Under the pieces are notes generated by a model. That model was not told the origin of the DNA. It made no database searches and worked only from the letters and a program-made list of their open reading frames with translations. A program made the translations under genes and the position numbers. Shown here piece after piece: positions 8,223 to 27,350 of a stretch of DNA of 35,083 bases. Numbering within the stretch: the first letter of the stretch is position 1; each line of letters begins with the position of its first letter. Source of the stretch: Candidatus Saccharimonadota bacterium (lineage in GTDB: Bacteria; Patescibacteriota; Saccharimonadia; Saccharimonadales; Saccharimonadaceae); contig JAFWHE010000029.1 of NCBI GenBank assembly GCA_017512045.1, positions 1 to 35,083 of the forward strand. The letters are read 5' to 3'.

Positions 8223-8820
8223 CTCTCTTTTTCCTCCATTGTTCATCTTTTATTATAACATAGGCTTCCAGTCCGACTTTCTTGATTGAAAGCAGTAATA
8301 TAATAATTGCGATAATGGTGATAATGCCAGAAATTGTGCCAGCAATGGCGTAGCTGCCACTGGAGAAGATAGAGCTGATAATTGGTGTGATGAGTGCAGT
8401 GCCACAAGTTGGGCAACCACTGCCAAGCAATGCCAAAGTTGCGGCGATGCCAGCATTTTGAATGTCTGATGATTTGGTGCGATTATTTTTGATGCGTTTT
8501 TTCCAGATGAAGATAATTAGAGAGATTAAGGTACCTTGTAATAGTGCAAGGGCGAATGGCATCAACCAATCTAAAAATGTTCGTCCTACTCCGAATAATG
8601 CTAAGAAGTTAGTCCAGAGGATATCTATTTTGCCACCAAAGTCCAGAGCGAAGAATAGATTGATGGAACCAAAGCCGTCAGATAATAAATTAAGCAAAGT
8701 GCCAAAGACGATAAAAACAATCAGGAATGATACCCAGAATTTCGGCTTCCTCGTGGATAGGATAATACCAAGCGCTGCCATGCGCCACTCGTCGCACCAT
8801 TTAGCAATTTTTGCTTTCAT
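8203..8820 (-). CDS. Polytopic membrane protein with a CPTC motif
   Basis: This 205-aa protein has about five hydrophobic segments (near 28-46, 68-80, 84-106, 121-150 and 158-178). A GSGCPTCG motif (Cys136, Cys139) lies at a membrane segment. The family is not one I can name; it is not an obvious DsbB, VKOR or CcdA by motif. Its tight coupling to the DsbA-like gene suggests that the CxxC pair passes electrons from that protein to the membrane. Transcription appears leaderless: an extended -10 (TGCTATAAT, minus strand, 8833-8828) lies 7 bases from the ATG at 8820. Confidence 0.75.
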   Translation of the reverse strand: MKAKIAKWCDEWRMAALGIILSTRKPKFWVSFLIVFIVFGTLLNLLSDGFGSINLFFALDFGGKIDILWTNFLALFGVGRTFLDWLMPFALALLQGTLISLIIFIWKKRIKNNRTKSSDIQNAGIAATLALLGSGCPTCGTALITPIISSIFSSGSYAIAGTISGIITIIAIIILLLSIKKVGLEAYVIIKDEQWRKKRDDRPKE

Positions 8821-8991
8821 AAAGATAATTATAGCATATGTGTTTTGGGCAAGTGGCGATATTTAGCAAGAAATCGCACTACATCTATTTTCTTATTATA
8901 TCACAGATAGCGATAAAAGTCAATGGATTTTTGGATTCTACCTCTGTTATTTCTGAAAATATTATGACATAAAAAATCTAAAAAAACAATA

Positions 8992-9020
8992 TTGACTTGA
9001 ATTTTTGCTAATGTTAAAAT
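8992..9020 (+). promoter_or_regulatory. Promoter of the small RNA
   Basis: -35 TTGACT (8992-8997), 17-base spacer and -10 TAAAAT (9015-9020) predict a start near 9027. No protein gene follows on this strand before the terminator at 9106-9140. Confidence 0.7.
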
Positions 9021-9026
9021 CTAAGT

Positions 9027-9142
9027 GAGGAGTTATGTGAAGTTGAGAGCCATATAACTCCGTGGAGTTTCTAGCTATTCTTGTAAACTAAACTACCTAG
9101 AAACCAAAAATGCGCTAGTCCCACAACTACGCGCATTTTTCT
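9027..9142 (+). ncRNA. Candidate stand-alone small RNA, three hairpins
   Basis: Between a good promoter and a strong terminator lie about 116 bases with no protein gene. Hairpin 1 pairs GGAGTTAT (9029-9036) with ATAACTCC (9054-9061), extendable by three pairs. Hairpin 2 pairs GTTTCTAG (9067-9074) with CTAGAAAC (9097-9104). Hairpin 3 pairs AAAAATGCGC (9106-9115) with GCGCATTTTT (9131-9140) and serves as the terminator. The next gene is on the opposite strand, so this is not a riboswitch leader. It does not look like 6S, SRP, RNase P or tmRNA. A GAGGAG site precedes an ATGTGA start-stop and a 6-codon GTG ORF inside hairpin 1, which could be a minimal leader peptide. Confidence 0.65.
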
Positions 9143-9157
9143 TGTCAAAGATATCAT

Positions 9158-9186
9158 AAAAAAAGAACCCCCAATATTGGGGGTTC
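9158..9186 (-). terminator. Terminator of the 258-aa gene
   Basis: GAACCCCC (9165-9172) and GGGGGTTC (9179-9186) form a perfect 8-bp stem with a 6-base loop. On the minus strand a run of seven T follows (9164-9158). It lies 7 bases after the stop of the gene at 9193-9969. Confidence 0.9.
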
Positions 9187-9192
9187 GGTTGG

Positions 9193-9969
9193 TTATTGAC
9201 TATTGATTATATTCCTTCCTGTTGTAATTTTTGCCTTCTGATCCTCGCTCAGGATAGATGATGTGCAATTTTCCTCCGCTAATGCGAACTTCACCAGCAA
9301 ATCGCTGATACGTTTTACAGTTACTTCAGTCTCTTTCGTGTTGCCGAAAAAATCCCTCAGCTTTCTACGCAGCAATCTGGTATTATTTAAGCATTCGTTC
9401 CTATCTTGGAGATATACGAGGGCGATTACTGACTTCAAGTCATCACCCTCTAGTTTCAAAGCTCTGTGTATCCAGGCCGCTGCTAGATAAGCAGATACAA
9501 TGTTACTCCCGCGGTAGCAAATATCGCCATTCTCATCTGTATTACGGGTATATTTCTTCCCGCAGTCACGTAGGATAGCGTACATAGTGGCAGTCCTCCC
9601 ATTAATGCCAGATTCTCCTACGAGATTACAAATGGTAATAGCTGTTTGTTCCGAGATAGTCTCCTTATGAGTGGCGGAAGTCTGTTCCCAAATGAAGCCT
9701 TCATAAGGCGTGATGCTGGACCGATCAACCTCCTGGTCAATCTCTTTCCTGGAAATAACAGGAAATCTCATCCTGCCTTCTTTGTCCACCTGCTCATAAA
9801 TGGCAGATACTAGTGGATCTTTTTCTTCCAAGAAGTTGTACAGATCTTTGGGGAGACATCTTCCTTCCTCACAGACGCTCTGTAATGGCTCTTCAAATAC
9901 CTCGCCGTTCATGACGGACTGATAAATGCCATTAAGCGTCCTAGGTAAATCTCTGACTATCTTATTCAT
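9193..9969 (-). CDS. Unknown soluble protein, 258 aa
   Basis: I do not recognise a family. The ATG at 9969 is chosen because AGGAGGGG lies 2-3 bases upstream; the longer frame to 9996 would put the ribosome site inside the gene. There is no signal peptide or membrane segment. The protein looks largely helical, with many charged residues and scattered cysteines (CEEGRC near 35-40; C at the NLVGESG and RDCGKK segments). It is a single transcription unit with a clear promoter (10066-10093) and terminator. The segment MYAILRDCGKKYTRN followed by a helical region has some feel of an HD-type helical bundle, but no HD motif is present. Confidence 0.75.
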   Translation of the reverse strand: MNKIVRDLPRTLNGIYQSVMNGEVFEEPLQSVCEEGRCLPKDLYNFLEEKDPLVSAIYEQVDKEGRMRFPVISRKEIDQEVDRSSITPYEGFIWEQTSATHKETISEQTAITICNLVGESGINGRTATMYAILRDCGKKYTRNTDENGDICYRGSNIVSAYLAAAWIHRALKLEGDDLKSVIALVYLQDRNECLNNTRLLRRKLRDFFGNTKETEVTVKRISDLLVKFALAEENCTSSILSEDQKAKITTGRNIINSQ

Positions 9970-10260: not shown

Positions 10261-10338
10261 ATGTTGCATTCATTATAACATACTTATTTGGTTTTTGGCA
10301 AAAATCATCTATTTTTATGATATAATGGGTGTGGAAAT

Positions 10339-10412
10339 GGCGCTTTGGCGGAGTGGTTACGCAGAGGTCTGCAAAACCTTTTACACCGGTTCAATTCCGG
10401 TAGGCGCCTCCA
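10339..10412 (+). tRNA. tRNA-Cys (GCA)
   Basis: The acceptor GGCGCTT pairs with AGGCGCC, the anticodon loop CTGCAAA gives GCA, the T loop is TTCAATT and CCA is encoded. A TATAAT at 10321-10326 precedes it by 12 bases. tRNA-Leu follows 10 bases later, so the two are co-transcribed. Confidence 0.95.
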
Positions 10413-10422
10413 ATTACAGTGA

Positions 10423-10507
10423 GGCCGAGTGGCGGAATTGGTATACGCGTTCGACTTAAAATCGAATGAAGAAATTCATACGGGTTCAAGTCCCGTCTCG
10501 GCTACCA
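10423..10507 (+). tRNA. tRNA-Leu (UAA)
   Basis: The anticodon stem TTCGA/TCGAA with loop CTTAAAA gives anticodon UAA. There is a long variable arm typical of tRNA-Leu, T loop TTCAAGT and an encoded CCA. The acceptor is GGCCGAG/CTCGGCT, so the first pair is a G-U wobble. It is co-transcribed with tRNA-Cys. Confidence 0.94.
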
Positions 10508-10508
10508 A

Positions 10509-10533
10509 AAAGTCCCTGAAGAGGGACATTTTT
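10509..10533 (+). terminator. Terminator after tRNA-Cys/tRNA-Leu
   Basis: GTCCCT (10512-10517) pairs with AGGGAC (10522-10527) around a GAAG loop and is followed by T-rich DNA. The A run before the stem could let it also end the convergent phosphoesterase transcript. Confidence 0.85.
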
Positions 10534-11431
10534 ATTCCTCGTTTCCATTCACTTCTACCACGCTCACCTCAGCTGCCTTGATAAAATTCATCGCCTGGGT
10601 GATTTTTGGCGCACAGAATTGAGCACCCACCATGCCAGGGTTGACTAGTGCTAGGGTGCTTTTTCCCACTCTAAATGCAGTGCGAGTATGACGTGGAAAA
10701 GGTGCCATATTAGGGGAGACTATGCCAAAATGTAAGTGTAATTTTTCCATTAATTCATCCAAGCCTTTTGGCACGATGCCACCATGAGTATGGCCGAATG
10801 ACATTATGTCGAATTGGCGCAAATACTCCATGCTTGCCTTGGTCAAGTATGGTGAATGTGCGGCAAACCAGTTCACCTTGGACGGCTCTATTCTGCTATA
10901 ATCATAATTCTTGACTTGTTCCAGGAAGACACCCGGATTCTCATGCCACTTTTTCTTATTAGCGATGACACACGGCACGTCTTGGAAAGAGCCAAAGATG
11001 CGGATTTTGTCTGTCTCATACCACTCGTCCAGTAATAATTTGATGCCGGTTTTTTCGCAAAGTTTTTCCCAGTGCAAGAGTGAAAATTCTTTCATCACCT
11101 TTGGTGGCTTGGTCGGAGTGATGTAATCGTGTGAGCCTAGTACCATTACGGTTGGAGCGGCCTTTGCGCAGAGTCGCAGATTAGAGTATAGCTTTTTCAG
11201 GGAAGTGTCACGTTTCAATTCTATCGGGCTATCCACCAAATCGCCTTGCAAAATGATAACATCAGGTGAGGTATTTTCTATCGCCTGTTTCAGGAAATCA
11301 CGCTGTCTTTCTGACACGATTGGACTAACGTGCCAGTCGCCAGTTACTAGTACTTTTACAGGGGCCAAGGCACGATCAAAATTGACTTTATGTAGGCGCA
11401 CTTTGATAGTATTAGGCTCATGCAAATTCAT
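10532..11431 (-). CDS. Calcineurin-like metallophosphoesterase
   Basis: This 299-aa protein is predicted to hydrolyse phosphoesters with a two-metal centre. The family motifs appear in order: GDWH (31-34), GDLVD (63-67), GSHD (99-102, where GNHD is usual), AAHSP with His192, and GHTHGG (213-218). The Asn to Ser change in the third motif affects a metal and substrate ligand and may alter activity. There is no signal peptide, so it is probably cytosolic. The ATG lies 7 bases after an extended -10 (TGTTATAAT, minus strand, 11444-11439), a leaderless arrangement. It is divergent from lemA. The substrate cannot be predicted. Confidence 0.88.
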   Translation of the reverse strand: MNLHEPNTIKVRLHKVNFDRALAPVKVLVTGDWHVSPIVSERQRDFLKQAIENTSPDVIILQGDLVDSPIELKRDTSLKKLYSNLRLCAKAAPTVMVLGSHDYITPTKPPKVMKEFSLLHWEKLCEKTGIKLLLDEWYETDKIRIFGSFQDVPCVIANKKKWHENPGVFLEQVKNYDYSRIEPSKVNWFAAHSPYLTKASMEYLRQFDIMSFGHTHGGIVPKGLDELMEKLHLHFGIVSPNMAPFPRHTRTAFRVGKSTLALVNPGMVGAQFCAPKITQAMNFIKAAEVSVVEVNGNEE

Positions 11432-20467: not shown

Positions 20468-22201
20468 ATGAGGCAAAAGATAAAGAAAAGTGGGCGAAAA
20501 CTAGCGAGGCGTGTTTCGCGTTTTTCTAAAAAAGCCGGTGCAGAGAGTAAGGAACACATCAGGGAGAATTTCCTGGAACGCATTTCTCATATTAAGGATA
20601 TTCGGCTACTGATTTTGGAGTGGTCATTACTAGTGATAGTGATTATTATGTTATCTGTCACCCAATCTTTCCTATATTCAGAATCATATGCCACTGCTGC
20701 CTATGCTAAGGGTGGCACATATTCAGAAGCTACACTGGGCCGTGTCAATTCGCTTAATCCACTCTTTGCCAGTACAGATAGCGAGAAAGTTCTCAGCAAG
20801 TTGATGTTTTCTACCCTATCAGCAGTAGATTATTCTGGACATATTGGACTGGGACTAGCAGAGAGCATAAAGACCGATGAAACTGGCTCTGTCTGGACAG
20901 TGAAATTGCGTGATAATATGAAATGGTCAGATGGCGAGCCAATTACCAATAAAGATGTGATATTTACCGTCGGCCTGATTCAATCCCCATCCGTCACGTC
21001 ATCTTATTCTACTAATCTGTCTGGCGTACGTGTCGAGGAGGAAAATGGCGAGCTGATATTTATTCTAGCTACACCATATGCTAATTTCTCCTCTGCATTG
21101 GAGTTTCCGATTTTGCCAGAACATGTGCTGAGCGATGCTAATCCATCACGCTTATTAGAGCATTCATTCTCTAATTCTCCAGTTACTTCTGGCGCATTTT
21201 CTTATAAGGCTACCCAGACGGTAGGAAACACCGGGGAAAAGGTGATTTATCTTTCTCCTAATACTGCCTATTATAAGGGTGAGCCGATGGTGGACAGTTT
21301 CGCAGTCCATGCCTATATGACAACAGATGATATTATTGCCGCGATTAACTCTGGCTCTGTCACGGCCACAGCGGAGCTTTTGCCGACTGATGCGGATAAG
21401 ATTACTACAGCTAATATTTATGAGAAGCAGACCGCCCTCAACTCTGGTATTTTTATCTTCTTTAATATGAATAGCCCAGTAATGTCGAACAAACTAATTC
21501 GCCAGGCATTACAACAGGGAATTGATATGCGTTCTTTGCGCGCACCACTAGGTGATGAAACAGCGCTAGATTATCCGCTTTTGCCTAATCAGACAGACTT
21601 AGATGATTATCCGAGCTTGCCAGATTACGATCCAGATGCAGCCAAGGAAAAGATTGGCCAGGCAGGTATAGAACAAGGTCAAAAGGTGATGATTGCCACA
21701 ATTAATACTGGCTATTTCCCGGCTTTGGCAGAGAATCTGAAATTCCAGTTGGAGAATCTAGGTATAGAGGCAGAAATTAATATGATGTCTCCGGGGCAGG
21801 ACTTCTTGATGAATGTGATTCGCCCGAGAAACTACGATATATTGTTGTATGAGATTGAGCTTGGCTCCGATTCCGATCTCTTTGCTTATTATCACTCTTC
21901 GCAAGTGTCAGAAAATGGTCTGAACCTATCTAATTATCGTAATACCATCGTGTCGGATGCGATTCTGGCATCCCGTGGCACGATGAATGAGAACATCCGT
22001 AATGCCAAATATAGGACTTTCCTAAAGAACTGGGTAGAAGATGTCCCAGCTATTGGCATTTGCCAGGTGAATTTATCATATTTCGTAAACAAGAATGTAC
22101 GTACTTTCTCCGAGGACGTGCGTTTAGTCAGTCCAGCAGATCGTTTCGTGGATGTTCAATATTGGGCAACAGAGAAAACTACAAAGAATAGGACACCGTA
22201 A
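20468..22201 (+). CDS. Family 5 extracellular solute-binding protein (peptide ABC type)
   Basis: This 577-aa protein has a basic cytosolic N-terminus, one membrane segment (about 51-68) that anchors it, and an extracytoplasmic domain of the SBP_bac_5 family. Signatures include LNPLFASTDSEKVLSKLMFSTL, MKWSDGEPITNKDVIFT, RQALQQGIDM and a late NYDILLYEIELG. It probably binds oligopeptides for an ABC importer whose permease genes are not in the window. The N-terminal anchor replaces the lipoprotein signal used by most relatives. It is the last gene of the uvrC-YvlD-secG run. A weak hairpin (CCTAG/CTAGG near 22210) follows. Confidence 0.9.
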   Translation: MRQKIKKSGRKLARRVSRFSKKAGAESKEHIRENFLERISHIKDIRLLILEWSLLVIVIIMLSVTQSFLYSESYATAAYAKGGTYSEATLGRVNSLNPLFASTDSEKVLSKLMFSTLSAVDYSGHIGLGLAESIKTDETGSVWTVKLRDNMKWSDGEPITNKDVIFTVGLIQSPSVTSSYSTNLSGVRVEEENGELIFILATPYANFSSALEFPILPEHVLSDANPSRLLEHSFSNSPVTSGAFSYKATQTVGNTGEKVIYLSPNTAYYKGEPMVDSFAVHAYMTTDDIIAAINSGSVTATAELLPTDADKITTANIYEKQTALNSGIFIFFNMNSPVMSNKLIRQALQQGIDMRSLRAPLGDETALDYPLLPNQTDLDDYPSLPDYDPDAAKEKIGQAGIEQGQKVMIATINTGYFPALAENLKFQLENLGIEAEINMMSPGQDFLMNVIRPRNYDILLYEIELGSDSDLFAYYHSSQVSENGLNLSNYRNTIVSDAILASRGTMNENIRNAKYRTFLKNWVEDVPAIGICQVNLSYFVNKNVRTFSEDVRLVSPADRFVDVQYWATEKTTKNRTP

Positions 22202-22418: not shown

Positions 22419-22447
22419 TTGACATAAGCATAATCCAGCTATAAAAT
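22419..22447 (+). promoter_or_regulatory. Promoter of first small secreted protein
   Basis: -35 TTGACA (22419-22424), 17-base spacer and -10 TAAAAT (22442-22447). The stretch CTTGACATAAGCATA differs by one base from the same region of the promoter at 23543, so the two paralogous genes appear to share a control element. Confidence 0.8.
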
Positions 22448-22497
22448 AGATAAGAGGAACTTTATTTTATTACCAATTATTGAAAGGGGTAAAACAG

Positions 22498-23208
22498 ATG
22501 TCTAGGATGAGAACGATTTTGGCTGGATTAGGCGTAGCCGCAGGGCTGGGCGTTGCCTCTTTTCCTGTTTTTGTCTCTGCTACTACGGAATGTGAGACTG
22601 GCGTAGACTGTCGTGAGTCTGGCGCTATGTTTACCACGGTCAATCTTGGCGATGTTATCAGTATGCGTATTGTTTCCCATTCTGATTCCGCTACCACCAC
22701 TACTACTTGTAATTCTCTGGATAAGACCCCTTCTTCTGATGGTTGTACTGGTGACGAACAAAGTACGCTAACCAATCTTCTTCCTAGTTCCAGCAATATC
22801 ACTGGCAATACGTCCACAGCATATTCATATATCTATGTCAGCACTAATTCATCCAATGGCTATACACTCACTCTCATAGATACAGATGAGAATGTCAATC
22901 TAGTCAATGCTGCTGGCCAGACTATCGGTGCGATTAATTCTACTCCAGTTGCTGGTAGTAATCCAGGTTGGGCAGTCGCAGTGAATGGTGGTAGCTGGCA
23001 AATTATGAAACATAATAAAAACTCTTCTGGCACAATTCCAGCAGAGACACCTATCACTGTGAAGACTAACGTTCCGACATCTTCTGGCACAATGACATCT
23101 CTTATCACGGATGATCAGTCTACTGTATACTATGGTTATGCTACGTCTAGTACGCAAGCCACAGGGCTTTATACTGATACTATAGAATATACGGCTACTA
23201 CATTGTAG
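22498..23208 (+). CDS. Small secreted surface protein, WxL-like (paralogue 1)
   Basis: This 236-aa protein has a signal peptide (MSRMRTILAGLGVAAGLGVASFPVFVSA) and a Ser/Thr-rich mature part with five cysteines in its first third. Its C-terminal part (VYYGYATSSTQATGLYTDTIEY, ending TATTL) closely parallels the protein encoded at 23632 (VYYG, TGLY, YTATT), so the two are paralogues. The position directly before two WxLIP-like genes and the beta-rich composition suggest a small WxL-type wall-associated protein. The exact WxL motif is not clear, so this is inference. The ATG at 22498 follows AAAGGGG by 8 bases. Confidence 0.8.
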   Translation: MSRMRTILAGLGVAAGLGVASFPVFVSATTECETGVDCRESGAMFTTVNLGDVISMRIVSHSDSATTTTTCNSLDKTPSSDGCTGDEQSTLTNLLPSSSNITGNTSTAYSYIYVSTNSSNGYTLTLIDTDENVNLVNAAGQTIGAINSTPVAGSNPGWAVAVNGGSWQIMKHNKNSSGTIPAETPITVKTNVPTSSGTMTSLITDDQSTVYYGYATSSTQATGLYTDTIEYTATTL

Positions 23209-23224
23209 TAAATCATTACAATAC

Positions 23225-23415
23225 ACATTTTATGGGTCCTGTCGCGACATTGGTGTTTGAGGTCTGGACTTGAACGTTCTGAACGTCATACGATGTAAAA
23301 ATAAAGCAACCCCCTTTCAGGAGTTGCTTTATTTTTAGGCATGAATATACGTTAGAACGTTCAAATCTACCAGCTTCAAGACCTCAAAACCAATTGTCGC
23401 GCCACCCGCAAAATG
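23225..23415. repeat. Palindromic element with hairpin core (MITE-like)
   Basis: An imperfect inverted repeat of about 190 bp. The left arm starts at 23225 (ACATTTTATGGGTCC...). The right arm, read on the minus strand from 23415, gives CATTTTGCGGGTGG, CGCGACAATTGG and TTTGAGGTCT. Inner arms share TTGAACGTTCT (near 23270 and 23353). The core is a perfect 14-bp stem, AAAAATAAAGCAAC (23297-23310) with GTTGCTTTATTTTT (23323-23336), which can also end the upstream transcript. The left 42 bases recur at 34330-34371 with one mismatch. A third, weaker right-arm copy lies at 23432-23474. Confidence 0.75.
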
Positions 23416-23431
23416 ATATCGCCAAGGATTT

Positions 23432-23474
23432 CCGCCTCAAGCCACAAAAAGTAATTGTCGCACCACCCACCATT
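23432..23474 (-). repeat. Diverged extra copy of the element arm
   Basis: Read on the minus strand this gives GGTGGGTGGTGCGACAATTA followed by TTTTGTGGCTTGAGGCGG. It aligns with the right arm of the element at 23371-23415 (GCGGGTGGCGCGACAATTGG). The two copies are in tandem, about 58 bases apart. Confidence 0.5.
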
Positions 23475-23542
23475 AAACCAATAATGTATTCTAATGTGGA
23501 AAACATTGTGATTATAGGGATAAAAATTATGGCAGAAAAGTC

Positions 23543-23572
23543 TTGACATTAGCATAGGCGGTATAGTATACT
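23543..23572 (+). promoter_or_regulatory. Promoter of second small secreted protein
   Basis: -35 TTGACA (23543-23548), 18-base spacer and -10 TATACT (23567-23572). The segment CTTGACATTAGCATA matches the promoter at 22419 in 14 of 15 positions. The leader of about 50 bases ends in AGAAAGGA. Confidence 0.8.
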
Positions 23573-23631
23573 AAGAATCACAAAGGTCATATAAATAAAC
23601 AATTAAACAAATATAGAAAGGAAAATTTATT

Positions 23632-24354
23632 ATGTCCAAAAAATCTACTAAGATTATTGCTGCTGCTGGCGTAGTCGCTGGCCTAGGTGTCGCTGCTTTA
23701 CCTGCAATGACGTTTGCTACCCAATCCGTTAATGGTTCTGCAGATATCTATGCTCAGATCGATCCAGCAATTGCTATGTCTATTACTGGTAACAATGATG
23801 ACAATAGCCATGTTTCTAACAGCTATGGCGCTGCTAAAGCAAAAGCTCCAAACACCATTACCGCTCTTGATACTTTGACTTCTACAGATTTGGCCGACTA
23901 TTCTAACGGTACTGCAGCTGTAACATCTTCTAGCTGGATTAACCTTCTGCCAAATACTTCTGCTCATGGTTCTGATAGTAATGGCTTCAAGTCTACCATC
24001 ACTGTTTACACAAATGATACTGGTTATACTCTAAGTATCAGTGGTTCAGGATCTGAGGGTGCTCTTGGTAACATGGTGAACCAGACTACAGGCAGTTCTG
24101 CTTATATTGAGGCGAATGGTATCGTAAAAGCTGGTTCTGATGGTTGGGGCTACGCAGTTGATACAGCTGTAACAACTGATGCTTCTGGCTCAACTCCAAA
24201 CTACGAAGTTGACGGTGGCCAAATTAAGGATGGTACTGGTCCTACATCTGGTGGTGAAGTTACAACAGTTTACTACGGTGTTTCTTCTAACCCAGATCAG
24301 GAAACCGGCCTTTACAAGGCAACTGTTACCTACACCGCTACAACCGATCATTAA
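23632..24354 (+). CDS. Small secreted surface protein, WxL-like (paralogue 2)
   Basis: This 240-aa protein has a signal peptide ending near PAMTFA and a mature part rich in Ser, Thr, Asn and Gly with no cysteine. A WINLLPN segment, GWGYAVD (parallel to GWAVAVN in paralogue 1) and the C-terminal VTTVYYGVSSNPDQETGLYK and YTATTDH show relation to the protein encoded at 22498. Abundant GCT, TCT and AAC codons and strong control signals suggest high expression, as for a major surface protein. It ends at a strong terminator and precedes two WxLIP-like genes. A WxL-type wall protein is the best guess, from context. Confidence 0.8.
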   Translation: MSKKSTKIIAAAGVVAGLGVAALPAMTFATQSVNGSADIYAQIDPAIAMSITGNNDDNSHVSNSYGAAKAKAPNTITALDTLTSTDLADYSNGTAAVTSSSWINLLPNTSAHGSDSNGFKSTITVYTNDTGYTLSISGSGSEGALGNMVNQTTGSSAYIEANGIVKAGSDGWGYAVDTAVTTDASGSTPNYEVDGGQIKDGTGPTSGGEVTTVYYGVSSNPDQETGLYKATVTYTATTDH

Positions 24355-24372
24355 TTATAGCGGTAATCAGAA

Positions 24373-24400
24373 AATAAGCCCCTCACGGGGCTTATTTTTT
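24373..24400 (+). terminator. Strong terminator after paralogue 2
   Basis: AATAAGCCCC (24373-24382) pairs perfectly with GGGGCTTATT (24387-24396) around a 4-base loop and runs into six T. The next 140 bases hold no gene that I can see, up to the promoter at 24541. Confidence 0.93.
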
Positions 24401-24540
24401 AGCGATGACTCATAATCCAACTATATGTATCTGAGTCTATTCCTTGCCATGATGCTACGCATTGGCCTACCTCAATTACGATGATTTCATTAGAATCTTA
24501 AAATCGTCCCTCCAAATTTGGAGTAAATAGCATTTTCCCC

Positions 24541-24569
24541 TTGTCATTTCTCCCTAGACCATTTATAAT
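24541..24569 (+). promoter_or_regulatory. Promoter of the WxLIP-like gene pair
   Basis: -35 TTGTCA (24541-24546), 17-base spacer and -10 TATAAT (24564-24569), then a 15-base leader with AAGGAGG before the ATG at 24591. Confidence 0.85.
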
Positions 24570-24590
24570 GGAATAATAACAAGGAGGTAA

Positions 24591-25568
24591 ATGGCTAAAA
24601 AAATAAAACTTATTCTTGCTGCTTTTGTCGCGGCCGTATCTTTCGGAATTTATCAGACACTAGCTATTAACAATGCTTCGGCGGAAGAGGCGGATCGTCA
24701 TCCGATTTTGCTTCAGATTTCTCCGACTAAGCAAAAGATTTCTATTACCCCGGGTTCGTCTTATGTCGGCTCTTTCATCGTGCATAACGCTGGCACACAG
24801 AGATTCAGCTACTCTGTTTCTGCTACACCATATAGCGTAACCAATCAGGAATACAACCCAGATTACAGCACTGTGGCCAGATATTCTCAGATGTCGGATT
24901 GGATTACATTTGATGAGTCCACTCGTACCGGTACATTAGAGCCAGGTACGATGAGGGACGTAGCTTTCACAGTTAATGTTCCGGCAGATGTTCCAGCTGG
25001 TACACAGTATGCTGCCTTGATGGCTCAGACTGAGGATGGCAACGCAGATAACGCCACCATCGCCGTTATTCACCGTGTCGGTATGATTCTTGCCGCTACT
25101 GTTCCAGGTGATACTCGTGAGACGGGCGAGATTATTAAGAATAACGTCAGTACTTTTTACTTCAATCCTCCAGTCACTATGTCTTCTCTTGTCAAAAACA
25201 CTGGTAACGTAGAGCAGACAGCCAAATACACATACAAGATTTACCCATTATTCTCCAATGAAGCTCTCTATAACAATGAGGAAGACCCACAGAAGCTAGA
25301 TATTTACCCAGAGACAGAACGCTTTAATTCTATGACTTGGGAGGGCGCACCTACTCTTGGTATCTTCTGGATGGAGCAGACCGTAGAACTAGGCGACCAA
25401 GTCCCGATTTCTAAGGTAGGGAAGCTAGTGCTCATCTGCCCACTCTGGCTAATATTCATCATCTTTGCTTTGCTCTTCGCTGCAATTTTCTGGCTGGTCG
25501 CCCGTGCGAGAAGCCGCAAAAATGTCGGAGCGGAAGCTAATTCATCTGATAAAAAGGAGGAAGCATAA
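24591..25568 (+). CDS. WxLIP/DUF916-like membrane-anchored surface protein A
   Basis: This 325-aa protein has a signal peptide (about 1-31), two Ig-like beta domains, a C-terminal membrane segment (about 281-308) and a basic cytosolic tail (ARARSRK). The first domain (SPTKQKISITPGSSYVGSF, TLEPGTMRDVAFTVNVPADV, PAGTQYAALMAQ) follows the pattern of DUF916, the peptidoglycan-binding half of WxL-interacting proteins. The second (VTMSSLVKNTGNVEQTAKYT) fits the DUF3324-like half. In Gram-positive bacteria such proteins hold WxL proteins at the wall. It is translationally coupled to the next gene through a TAATG overlap (stop 25566-25568, start 25568). Confidence 0.75.
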   Translation: MAKKIKLILAAFVAAVSFGIYQTLAINNASAEEADRHPILLQISPTKQKISITPGSSYVGSFIVHNAGTQRFSYSVSATPYSVTNQEYNPDYSTVARYSQMSDWITFDESTRTGTLEPGTMRDVAFTVNVPADVPAGTQYAALMAQTEDGNADNATIAVIHRVGMILAATVPGDTRETGEIIKNNVSTFYFNPPVTMSSLVKNTGNVEQTAKYTYKIYPLFSNEALYNNEEDPQKLDIYPETERFNSMTWEGAPTLGIFWMEQTVELGDQVPISKVGKLVLICPLWLIFIIFALLFAAIFWLVARARSRKNVGAEANSSDKKEEA

Positions 25569-26569
25569 TGTTAAAAACAATTGTAAAATCCACAGTTGTC
25601 TTGGGAGCGGTTTTGGCGTCAGCCTTCTCTCCTCTAGCCAATGTTTTTGCAGAGGATGGGATACTCATCTCTCCACAACAGAACACGACGGAGGTGCGCG
25701 CGGACGATGGTCCGGTCAACTCCTGGTTACAAGTGGCACCAGTATCTAATAGGGTGAAGCTGATTCCTGGTAGCACACTGGAGTATTCTCTCATCGTTTC
25801 TAATATTGGGAATCAGAACTTTGATTTCAGTGTTTATTCTGCACCATATAGCATTGTAGATGAGGATTACAACCTCAGCTTTAGTAATGAGAACCAGCGC
25901 ACCCAGCTTTCTCGTTGGATTCAGTTCATCAATGCAGATGGTTCTCTGACAGATAAGTTCAAAGGCACGGTGGCTGCAGGGGAGCAGATGGCAGTTAATT
26001 ATCGCATTACTGTCCCAGATGATGTCCCATCAGGTGGCCAGTATGCTGTTATCTTGACTCAGACTGAGAACGATAACGAGGCTGAGAGTGTAGGTGTTCA
26101 GACTGTATCTAGGGTAGGCACAGTTATCTATGGTCGTACCGATGGTGATACAAATGAGAAGGCAGAGCTTCTCAGTATGGACATTCCGACTTTCAAGACT
26201 CAAGGCAAGATCAACGCATCTTCCGTGGTGAAGAATACTGGTAATACCGATTTTGAGGCGAAATATCGCTTCGTTGTGACATCTATCATCGGCAAAGAAC
26301 TCTATGTCAGTGAGAATTCCCACTTAATCTTGCCAGATACCCAGCGCAAGGCAGAGTTTGTCTGGGATGATACACCAGCAATCGGTATCTTCCAGGTACA
26401 TTATCAGATAGAAACCTATGGCGAAATGCTAAAGGAAAAGACTGTCTATGTAATGATTGTGCCAATTTATTTGATAGTGATTATGATTTTATTATTGACA
26501 TTTGCAGTCATTTGGATTATAATGCTAATTAGGAAACGCAAAGAACGTAAATCTCGTCTCTTGGTCTAG
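25568..26569 (+). CDS. WxLIP/DUF916-like membrane-anchored surface protein B
   Basis: This 333-aa paralogue of the previous protein has the same plan: signal peptide (about 1-28), DUF916-like domain (LIPGSTLEYSLIVSNIGNQN, VAAGEQMAVNYRITVPDDVP, SGGQYAVILTQ), a second beta domain (INASSVVKNTGNTDFEAKYR), a C-terminal membrane segment (about 295-322) and a basic tail (RKRKERKSR). It starts in the stop codon of protein A, behind AAAAGGAGG. The tandem pair suggests that the two form a complex or serve the two small secreted paralogues upstream; this is inference. Confidence 0.75.
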   Translation: MLKTIVKSTVVLGAVLASAFSPLANVFAEDGILISPQQNTTEVRADDGPVNSWLQVAPVSNRVKLIPGSTLEYSLIVSNIGNQNFDFSVYSAPYSIVDEDYNLSFSNENQRTQLSRWIQFINADGSLTDKFKGTVAAGEQMAVNYRITVPDDVPSGGQYAVILTQTENDNEAESVGVQTVSRVGTVIYGRTDGDTNEKAELLSMDIPTFKTQGKINASSVVKNTGNTDFEAKYRFVVTSIIGKELYVSENSHLILPDTQRKAEFVWDDTPAIGIFQVHYQIETYGEMLKEKTVYVMIVPIYLIVIMILLLTFAVIWIIMLIRKRKERKSRLLV

Positions 26570-26660
26570 AACGAGCGACAGAGAATTACAACTGCGAATC
26601 ATAATTCTTTGCGTAAGCCAAAACAAAAATATCAAACCAAAATAACAAGAGAGTGTGGTT

Positions 26661-27266
26661 ATGAAGGAAAGTAAGAAAAAATTACTGGGTCTTGCTGGCT
26701 TGGCGGTCGTTGCGGGGTTGACTGCTTGCGCCATCAATATGCCGGTTGGCGCCGTTTCCGTGAGTGGCGGCGTGGAGATTAATGTCGAGGTTTATAGTAT
26801 CAACTATGAAACCGTGATTGAATCTCCAGAGGATAACGCGGTATATACCCAGCCAGTAATAAAGTTCACAGAGCGCCATAGTCGCGTGGATAGTGTAAAA
26901 TACTATCTTATCAATTTGACGACTGGGGTTACCTATGAACTGTCAGAATACGAGGTCAGTGGAACGGACGTCAGCGGAAGGACGGAGTTCATGCTGGACC
27001 TTGATCAATTCGGTGGATATGGCACATATATCTTCAAGTCAAAGATTGTATCCTATGGTTCGCACTTTGACGATGAAGATTCTGTTCAGTTCACCTATGC
27101 GTCAGATTCTCCAGACGTACCAAATACCGGTGGTTCGGGTTTGAGCGCCTTTTATGGCTCGCTAAACGTGGCGAAATCTGACATCTTAATTACAGGATTG
27201 ATTGGATTTTTCGCAATTAGTTTTGTGACACTATACATCATCCGTAAGTCAAATCGCAAAGAATAG
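26661..27266 (+). CDS. Surface protein with LPXTG-like sorting tail
   Basis: This 201-aa protein has an N-terminal signal (KKKLLGLAGLAVVAGLTAC), a beta-rich outer domain and a C-terminal tail with VPNTG (153-157), a membrane segment (about 175-194) and a positive end (RKSNRKE). That tail is the layout of a sortase sorting signal, with Val in place of Leu. The signal peptide also contains LTAC (20-23), which fits a lipobox, so lipoprotein processing at Cys23 is possible. Both anchors in one protein would be unusual; one is probably not used. ATG 26661 is chosen over the GTG at 26655. The ribosome site is weak. No sortase gene lies in the window. Confidence 0.75.
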   Translation: MKESKKKLLGLAGLAVVAGLTACAINMPVGAVSVSGGVEINVEVYSINYETVIESPEDNAVYTQPVIKFTERHSRVDSVKYYLINLTTGVTYELSEYEVSGTDVSGRTEFMLDLDQFGGYGTYIFKSKIVSYGSHFDDEDSVQFTYASDSPDVPNTGGSGLSAFYGSLNVAKSDILITGLIGFFAISFVTLYIIRKSNRKE

Positions 27267-27312
27267 CGCTAACGCTAGATAGTAGATAGATTTTGTTTTT
27301 GGCTTATCTTTT

Positions 27313-27350
27313 GAGCGGGCATCATGCGAGGGATGCTCGCTCCGTGTTTT
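27313..27350 (+). terminator. Terminator of the surface locus
   Basis: GAGCGGGCATC (27313-27323) pairs with GATGCTCGCTC (27332-27342) with one G-T pair, then a T-rich run to 27350. A second small stem (GGCG/CGCC near 27365-27380) lies between it and tRNA-Val. Confidence 0.75.

Follow-up and report, generated by a model that had tools for sequence, protein, structure and literature searches.

WxLIP proteins of the EfmWxLIP1 type (DUF916-DUF3324; PDB 9i1y, 9i25) are known from Firmicutes, where they comprise 337–365 aa made up of a signal peptide, a pair of Ig-like domains, a transmembrane (TM) helix and a tail, are encoded next to one or more small secreted proteins and an LPXTG-type protein, and have been proposed to bind WxL proteins by insertion of a strand of the DUF916 domain (PMC10599100). 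Their partners, the WxL proteins (PF13731), are small secreted β-proteins encoded beside WxLIP; the two motifs of small WxL proteins lie roughly 106 residues apart (PMC9772566), and some large versions are fused to other modules. In archaic chaperone-usher systems (SCPU/CsuA/B subunits with CsuC of the PapD family), tandem subunit genes precede one chaperone-like gene. In Actinobacteria (plasmids of Arthrobacter, Clavibacter and Cellulosimicrobium; Leucobacter), the gene of a DUF916-TM protein is immediately preceded by one for a small secreted protein. Few candidates have been described for the means by which ultrasmall epibionts recognize and hold their hosts; in cultured Saccharibacteria, type IV pili, a T4SS and various adhesins are known to take part in host contact (PMC10633639), DUF916 and sortases are not mentioned in the main text of that paper, and our literature search found no paper treating WxL and Saccharibacteria together.

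We analysed a stretch of 35,083 nucleotides (the window) from a genome of 0.73 Mb (97% complete; contig C12). The D1 protein encoded there is 74% identical to a protein of Candidatus Saccharibacteria RGIG5655 (sheep duodenum), and the named relatives are nearly all Saccharibacteria from ruminant guts; the reduced-genome bacterium assumed in the preliminary description is thus, judging by these relatives, a member of the Saccharibacteria, as had been guessed there. The interval 22419–27350 reaches from the SP1 promoter to just beyond LP, and the cluster is flanked by a tRNA-Leu gene (- strand) on one side and tRNA-Val/Lys on the other. It contains the following features:

22419–22447, + strand: promoter-like site of SP1, TTGACA-17-TAAAAT (consensus scan, 11 of 12)
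22498–23208, + strand: SP1, small secreted protein, 236 aa, signal peptide, GYTL ... EYTA layout (ORF, SP-family profile, SP2 paralogue)
23297–23336, no strand assigned: terminator-like hairpin 3' of SP1 with T/A tails (sequence inspection, partly consensus scan)
23543–23572, + strand: promoter-like site of SP2, TTGACA-18-TATACT (consensus scan, 11 of 12)
23632–24354, + strand: SP2, small secreted protein, 240 aa, predicted β-sandwich of pilin-like fold (ORF, AF2 model, Foldseek/VIA matches to chaperone-usher pilins)
24371–24400, + strand: terminator-like hairpin 3' of SP2 (sequence inspection)
24541–24569, + strand: promoter-like site of D1, TTGTCA-17-TATAAT (consensus scan, 11 of 12)
24591–25568, + strand: D1, WxLIP homologue, 325 aa, in which a signal peptide precedes a DUF916/PapD-like Ig domain, another Ig-like domain, a TM helix (about 285–310) and a basic tail (PF06030, hhalign, model, PDB profile match)
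25568–26569, + strand: D2, second WxLIP homologue, 333 aa, architecture of D1, 1-base overlap with the D1 stop (D1 paralogy, same-order orthologues in relatives)
26495–26523, + strand: promoter-like site of LP, located within the 3' end of D2, TTGACA-17-TATAAT (consensus scan, 12 of 12)
26661–27266, + strand: LP, secreted Ig-like protein, 201 aa, VPNTG-linker-TM-basic tail as in sortase-type anchors (ORF, orthologues)

For SP1 we prefer the ATG at 22498, which has a good ribosome site, over the TTG at 22480. SP1 and SP2, both of which start with a signal peptide, are paralogous to each other (E 5e-7, 37% identity), and so are D1 and D2 (E 1e-49, 36% identity), each with a signal peptide, two β domains, one C-terminal TM helix and a basic tail; the two paralogous small secreted proteins and the tandem pair with C-terminal anchors were hence correctly recognized beforehand. 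All five genes were also rightly described as running in one direction, and strong sigma-70-like promoters that match 11–12 of 12 consensus positions precede SP1, SP2, D1 and LP. The region contains 21 promoter-like sites versus 13.6 +/- 3.1 expected, so that no single one counts as proof. A terminator hairpin of its own seems to follow each of SP1 and SP2, which makes several transcripts probable and does not imply a single operon. Searches of PHROGs and PADLOC with the five cluster proteins gave no match, and thus no sign of a phage or defence origin.

Judged by sequence profiles and predicted fold, D1 and D2 are homologous to WxLIP. PF06030 (WxLIP_PGBD, formerly DUF916) matches D genes in 89 of 149 genomes at E 0.001 and in 28 of the 149 above the curated cut-off; D1 of the window, searched alone, scores 17.4–19.5 bits, under the cut-off of 27.3. 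By hhalign the D family matches Enterococcus WxLIP at 97.2% across the DUF916 domain, and a D profile picked EfmWxLIP1 among the PDB sequences (E 0.0019); for the collection scan 13 D sequences were used, an alignment of 66 being too diverse. The D1 model (pLDDT 92) has helices at residues 2–24 (N-terminal) and 285–324, which together with the hydrophobic segments points to the signal peptide and C-terminal TM helix typical of WxLIP. Its best PDB match is EfmWxLIP1 of E. faecium, both as the structure alone and as the structure with bound long WxL (9i25_C/9i1y_A; Z 14.2/13.5, Foldseek E 2e-13, 229–231 residues aligned). This alignment covers both domains (residues 38–284); the large rmsd of 7.9 arises because the inter-domain angles differ. 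Next-best are two-domain fimbrial chaperones including CsuC, PapD and FimC (Z 11–12). By sequence D is tied to WxLIP, not to PapD.

The DUF916/WxLIP kinship that the preliminary description had proposed for both anchored proteins is therefore upheld; a fold unrelated to DUF916, named beforehand as the outcome speaking against it, is not what the D1 model adopts. Profile searches, suggested at the same time for DUF916, DUF3324 and WxL, gave matches above the cut-off for the first of these families only. No relative's second D domain scores above the sequence cut-off of PF11797 (DUF3324, HBD), its likeness being one of fold, and for WxL there was no match in the 149 genomes at E 0.001. In chain length (325–333 aa) D1 and D2 resemble the Firmicutes proteins. 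Further differences from these are the tandem duplication of the gene in the main cluster and the sequence PxDAPAGGQYA in place of the WxLIP hallmark NQIDKxxxYFDLK, which we did not see in D.

The third type of protein in the cluster, LP, ends in VPNTG-linker-TM-KSNRKE, as noted before, and in 29 of 30 LP relatives an xPxTG motif is found 43–52 aa from the end. A search for sortases, also proposed earlier, revealed four genes over the cut-off elsewhere in the same genome. With xPxTG motif, TM helix, basic tail and genomic sortases, LP has the sequence features of a sortase-anchored (LPXTG-type) protein. At 201 aa, the LP of the window is without the second Ig domain of its 300–360-aa orthologues. 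A relationship between SP and LP was considered and rejected: our first SP profile matched LP because LP sequences had entered the iteration and because of the common signal peptide, and with a clean SP profile the match to LP disappears.

The gene set and its order are repeated across Saccharibacteria, which confirms that the cluster exceeds chance and bears out the conservation expected for it. The order SP-(SP)-D1-D2-LP recurs at many loci within the genus and is found in full in TM7 oral taxon 351 (human oral); D-D-LP is present on a Nomurabacteria contig. In a second layout, SP(s)-X-D, X is a membrane protein of ~185 aa with conserved cysteines. Separate occurrence of the genes in relatives had been named as evidence against a common system. 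We found instead a same-strand SP gene upstream of 110 of the 126 D genes in named loci (8 of the remaining 16 are cut by a contig end), and in other families of the order an SP-like gene lies directly upstream in 17 of 20 D loci. Tandem arrays comprise up to five SP genes ahead of one D gene. Moreover, pairwise distances of neighbouring SP and D correlate with r 0.734, as compared to 0.610 +/- 0.038 for partner swaps within loci (an r this high was attained in 0 of 3000). As these within-locus swaps control for species history, the correlation argues for a functional partnership, and SP and D probably work together. Being abundant and multi-copy in Saccharibacteria and present in one human oral species, the cluster represents a concrete and conserved candidate for a host-contact system.

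We consider it reasonably probable that the locus encodes a WxLIP-type surface complex for adhesion, in which D acts as anchor and donates a strand to SP, and LP is anchored by sortase. D1 and D2 would be secreted and held in the membrane by the C-terminal helix, with their two Ig-like (PapD-like) domains exposed and arranged as in WxLIP. Each D would bind β-sandwich subunits of the SP1/SP2 type, most likely by lending them a strand of its DUF916 domain, in analogy to WxLIP–WxL and PapD-like chaperone–pilin pairs. LP would be fixed to the wall by sortase via VPNTG and contribute an Ig domain, while the SP subunits would be displayed on the surface, singly or as short polymers, and would serve adhesion, probably to the host cell. 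We infer SP–D binding, strand donation, display and adhesion by analogy with the described systems; as SP is not WxL by sequence, the argument for SP–D binding is drawn from gene linkage and analogy. The missing DUF3324 sequence match of domain 2 and two further SP genes of the same genome (contig C17) without a D neighbour speak against such a complex. The WxL-like surface system of the preliminary description is accordingly retained with regard to the WxLIP scaffold, the LPXTG-type protein, the sortases and the conservation, but not with regard to the WxL identity of the small proteins.

Other readings of the locus differ in what they take SP to be. In one that we rate as unlikely, SP subunits would polymerize by donor-strand complementation, D would be a membrane-anchored PapD-like chaperone or assembly base, and LP would cap or anchor the fibre, giving an usher-less fimbria in a monoderm. 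The AF2 model of SP2 (pLDDT 79, pTM 0.73) has the archaic pilin CsuA/B (7zl4) as its best Foldseek match (E 8e-4), and in VIA it matches many chaperone-usher pilins at Z 6–7.6 (best about 7.5), values that are all below 8 and may reflect only the common β-sandwich arrangement. A weak SCPU (PF05229) signal appears to be specific to SP genes, which provide 5 of the top 7 weak matches in 89 genomes; SCPU is also the top Pfam family, over nearly the whole profile, for 3/3 tested SP domains and for 0/5 shuffled ones. These scores are nevertheless sub-cut-off (at best 18.7 bits versus 22.4), and SCPU is absent from the Pfam matches of a 64-member SP set including the SPs of the window. The chaperone-like fold of D and the tandem SP arrays fit a pilus as well. 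A C-terminal aromatic residue is a pilin-like feature recognized by chaperones; at order level, a G-x-Y-x-x-T strand with a C-terminal F or Y closes 22 of 23 SP-like proteins, but the C-termini of the window SPs are not strictly aromatic. Such a fibre would also have to be built without an usher, which is not expected in a monoderm, or any other export platform, and with a chaperone-like protein that is membrane-anchored. All in all, sequence and model weakly favour a pilin (SCPU/Csu-like) over WxL as the better match for SP. Should D lend a strand to a pilin-like SP, this would connect WxL/WxLIP with chaperone-pilin systems, which have so far been described apart. The broader proposal that Saccharibacteria build usher-less, fimbria-like SCPU-type polymers with a membrane-anchored WxLIP/PapD-like chaperone, and that WxL/WxLIP and archaic chaperone-pilin pairs are branches of one strand-donation family, is speculative and in our estimate improbable.

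Equally doubtful in our view is the idea that SP proteins are extremely diverged, peptidoglycan-binding WxL domains in which Trp has been replaced by Tyr. Nearly all members of the SP family share N-x-x-G-[YWF]-x-[LVI], followed by an invariant late W and a terminal Y-x-x-x-[VIA]-x-[YF]-x-[LA]; the second aromatic site (YxL/YxA) lies about 102 residues after the first, close to the spacing of small WxL proteins. However, WxL is present at site 1 in only 3 of 64 members and W at site 2 in none, and SP1 and SP2 of the window have Tyr at both. At E 10 the best PF13731 match of the 149 genomes falls on an SP gene that has a D gene next to it (E 0.0012, below cut-off); this match may be compositional, since the WxL profile does not separate 149 SP proteins from shuffled versions of them (AUC 0.53). 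With hhalign at 0.9% for SP versus WxL, the small proteins are not WxL as far as single-sequence and profile searches can tell, contrary to the preliminary description. The WxL chain 9i25_A is not among the matches listed for the SP2 model, which is uninformative. Actinobacterial small proteins could be intermediates: those encoded beside DUF916 genes can be linked to WxL by hhalign (94%) and by Pfam (E 3e-4 and 9e-4), but hhalign of SP with them gives 1–12%. According to the last reading, which we regard as highly improbable, SP would be S-layer-like or matrix proteins of an unrelated surface layer, with D and LP as general adhesins nearby by coincidence. The SP paralogues on contig C17 and the fusion of SP-type domains to adhesin-like modules would agree with it, whereas the strong SP–D linkage and the locus-wise co-diversification disagree.

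Some additional searches with SP and its candidate relatives can be reported briefly. The SP profile had no match among PDB sequences, and tblastn of SP against plasmids gave none either. DUF4402 (PF14352) was discarded as a candidate family, as it yielded scattered weak matches only, and SCPU yardstick proteins sought on the Cupriavidus metallidurans megaplasmid were not found.

The D profile matches the Actinobacteria DUF916 proteins at E 1e-18 or better. Most of their small partners resemble WxL more closely than SP, and the Leucobacter protein alone is an SP member (E 1e-18). As the Actinobacterial plasmid pairs reach WxL, DUF916-TM with a small β partner suggests itself as a unit broader than the WxL name implies, with WxL, Actinobacterial and Saccharibacterial partners. 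Finally, SP-type domains also occur fused to InlB-repeat/FISUMP adhesin-like modules; in large SP-type proteins the domain is N-terminal, not C-terminal as in WxL proteins, and some large SP versions adjoin D.

Two Leucobacter genomes, those of L. chromiireducens LYC-2 and Leucobacter sp. Ag1, encode a homologue of the small secreted proteins SP1 and SP2 (SP family) and one of the membrane-anchored WxLIP-homologous (DUF916) proteins D1 and D2 (D family), adjoining fn3 proteins:

L164 1912-3614, SP-D pair, Leucobacter chromiireducens LYC-2
L166 2188-3890, SP-D pair, Leucobacter sp. Ag1

In the D profile search, the Leucobacter D proteins lie near those of Saccharibacteria (E 1e-84). Since each of the two assemblies carries a single ribosomal S12 gene, contamination with an epibiont is not indicated. 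Leucobacter is among the known host genera of Saccharibacteria, and it is possible that the SP and D genes reflect gene exchange between epibiont and host.

Further SP arrangements, and a gene that precedes the window's cluster:

G000:C17 (L039) 8530-9357 and 10276-10986, extra SP paralogues
L046 2524-5646, large SP-domain protein (1041 aa)
L071 468-2249, large SP-domain protein (594 aa)
L061 10330-10875 and L065 5676-6260, examples of the SP-X-D layout
window 20468-22201, family-5 solute-binding protein gene

The two extra paralogues, on another contig of the window's own genome, are 50% and 71% identical to SP2, and no D gene was found near them. In both large proteins the SP-type domain is N-terminal and followed by FISUMP (Fibrobacter-major-domain) modules, to which the 1041-aa protein adds List_Bact repeats; a D gene directly precedes one of the two, which thereby resembles a 'large' partner. 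In a second layout, a conserved gene X is placed between SP and D; its product (~185 aa) carries an N-terminal TM and a pair of conserved cysteines, and has no confident Pfam family match.

On Actinobacterial plasmids (L198-L201), DUF916 genes are preceded by unannotated genes for small secreted proteins. These proteins are distantly related to WxL, and their W-x-L motifs are degraded. The solute-binding protein gene precedes the window's cluster, and such a gene also adjoins an SP-D unit in another genome (L173).
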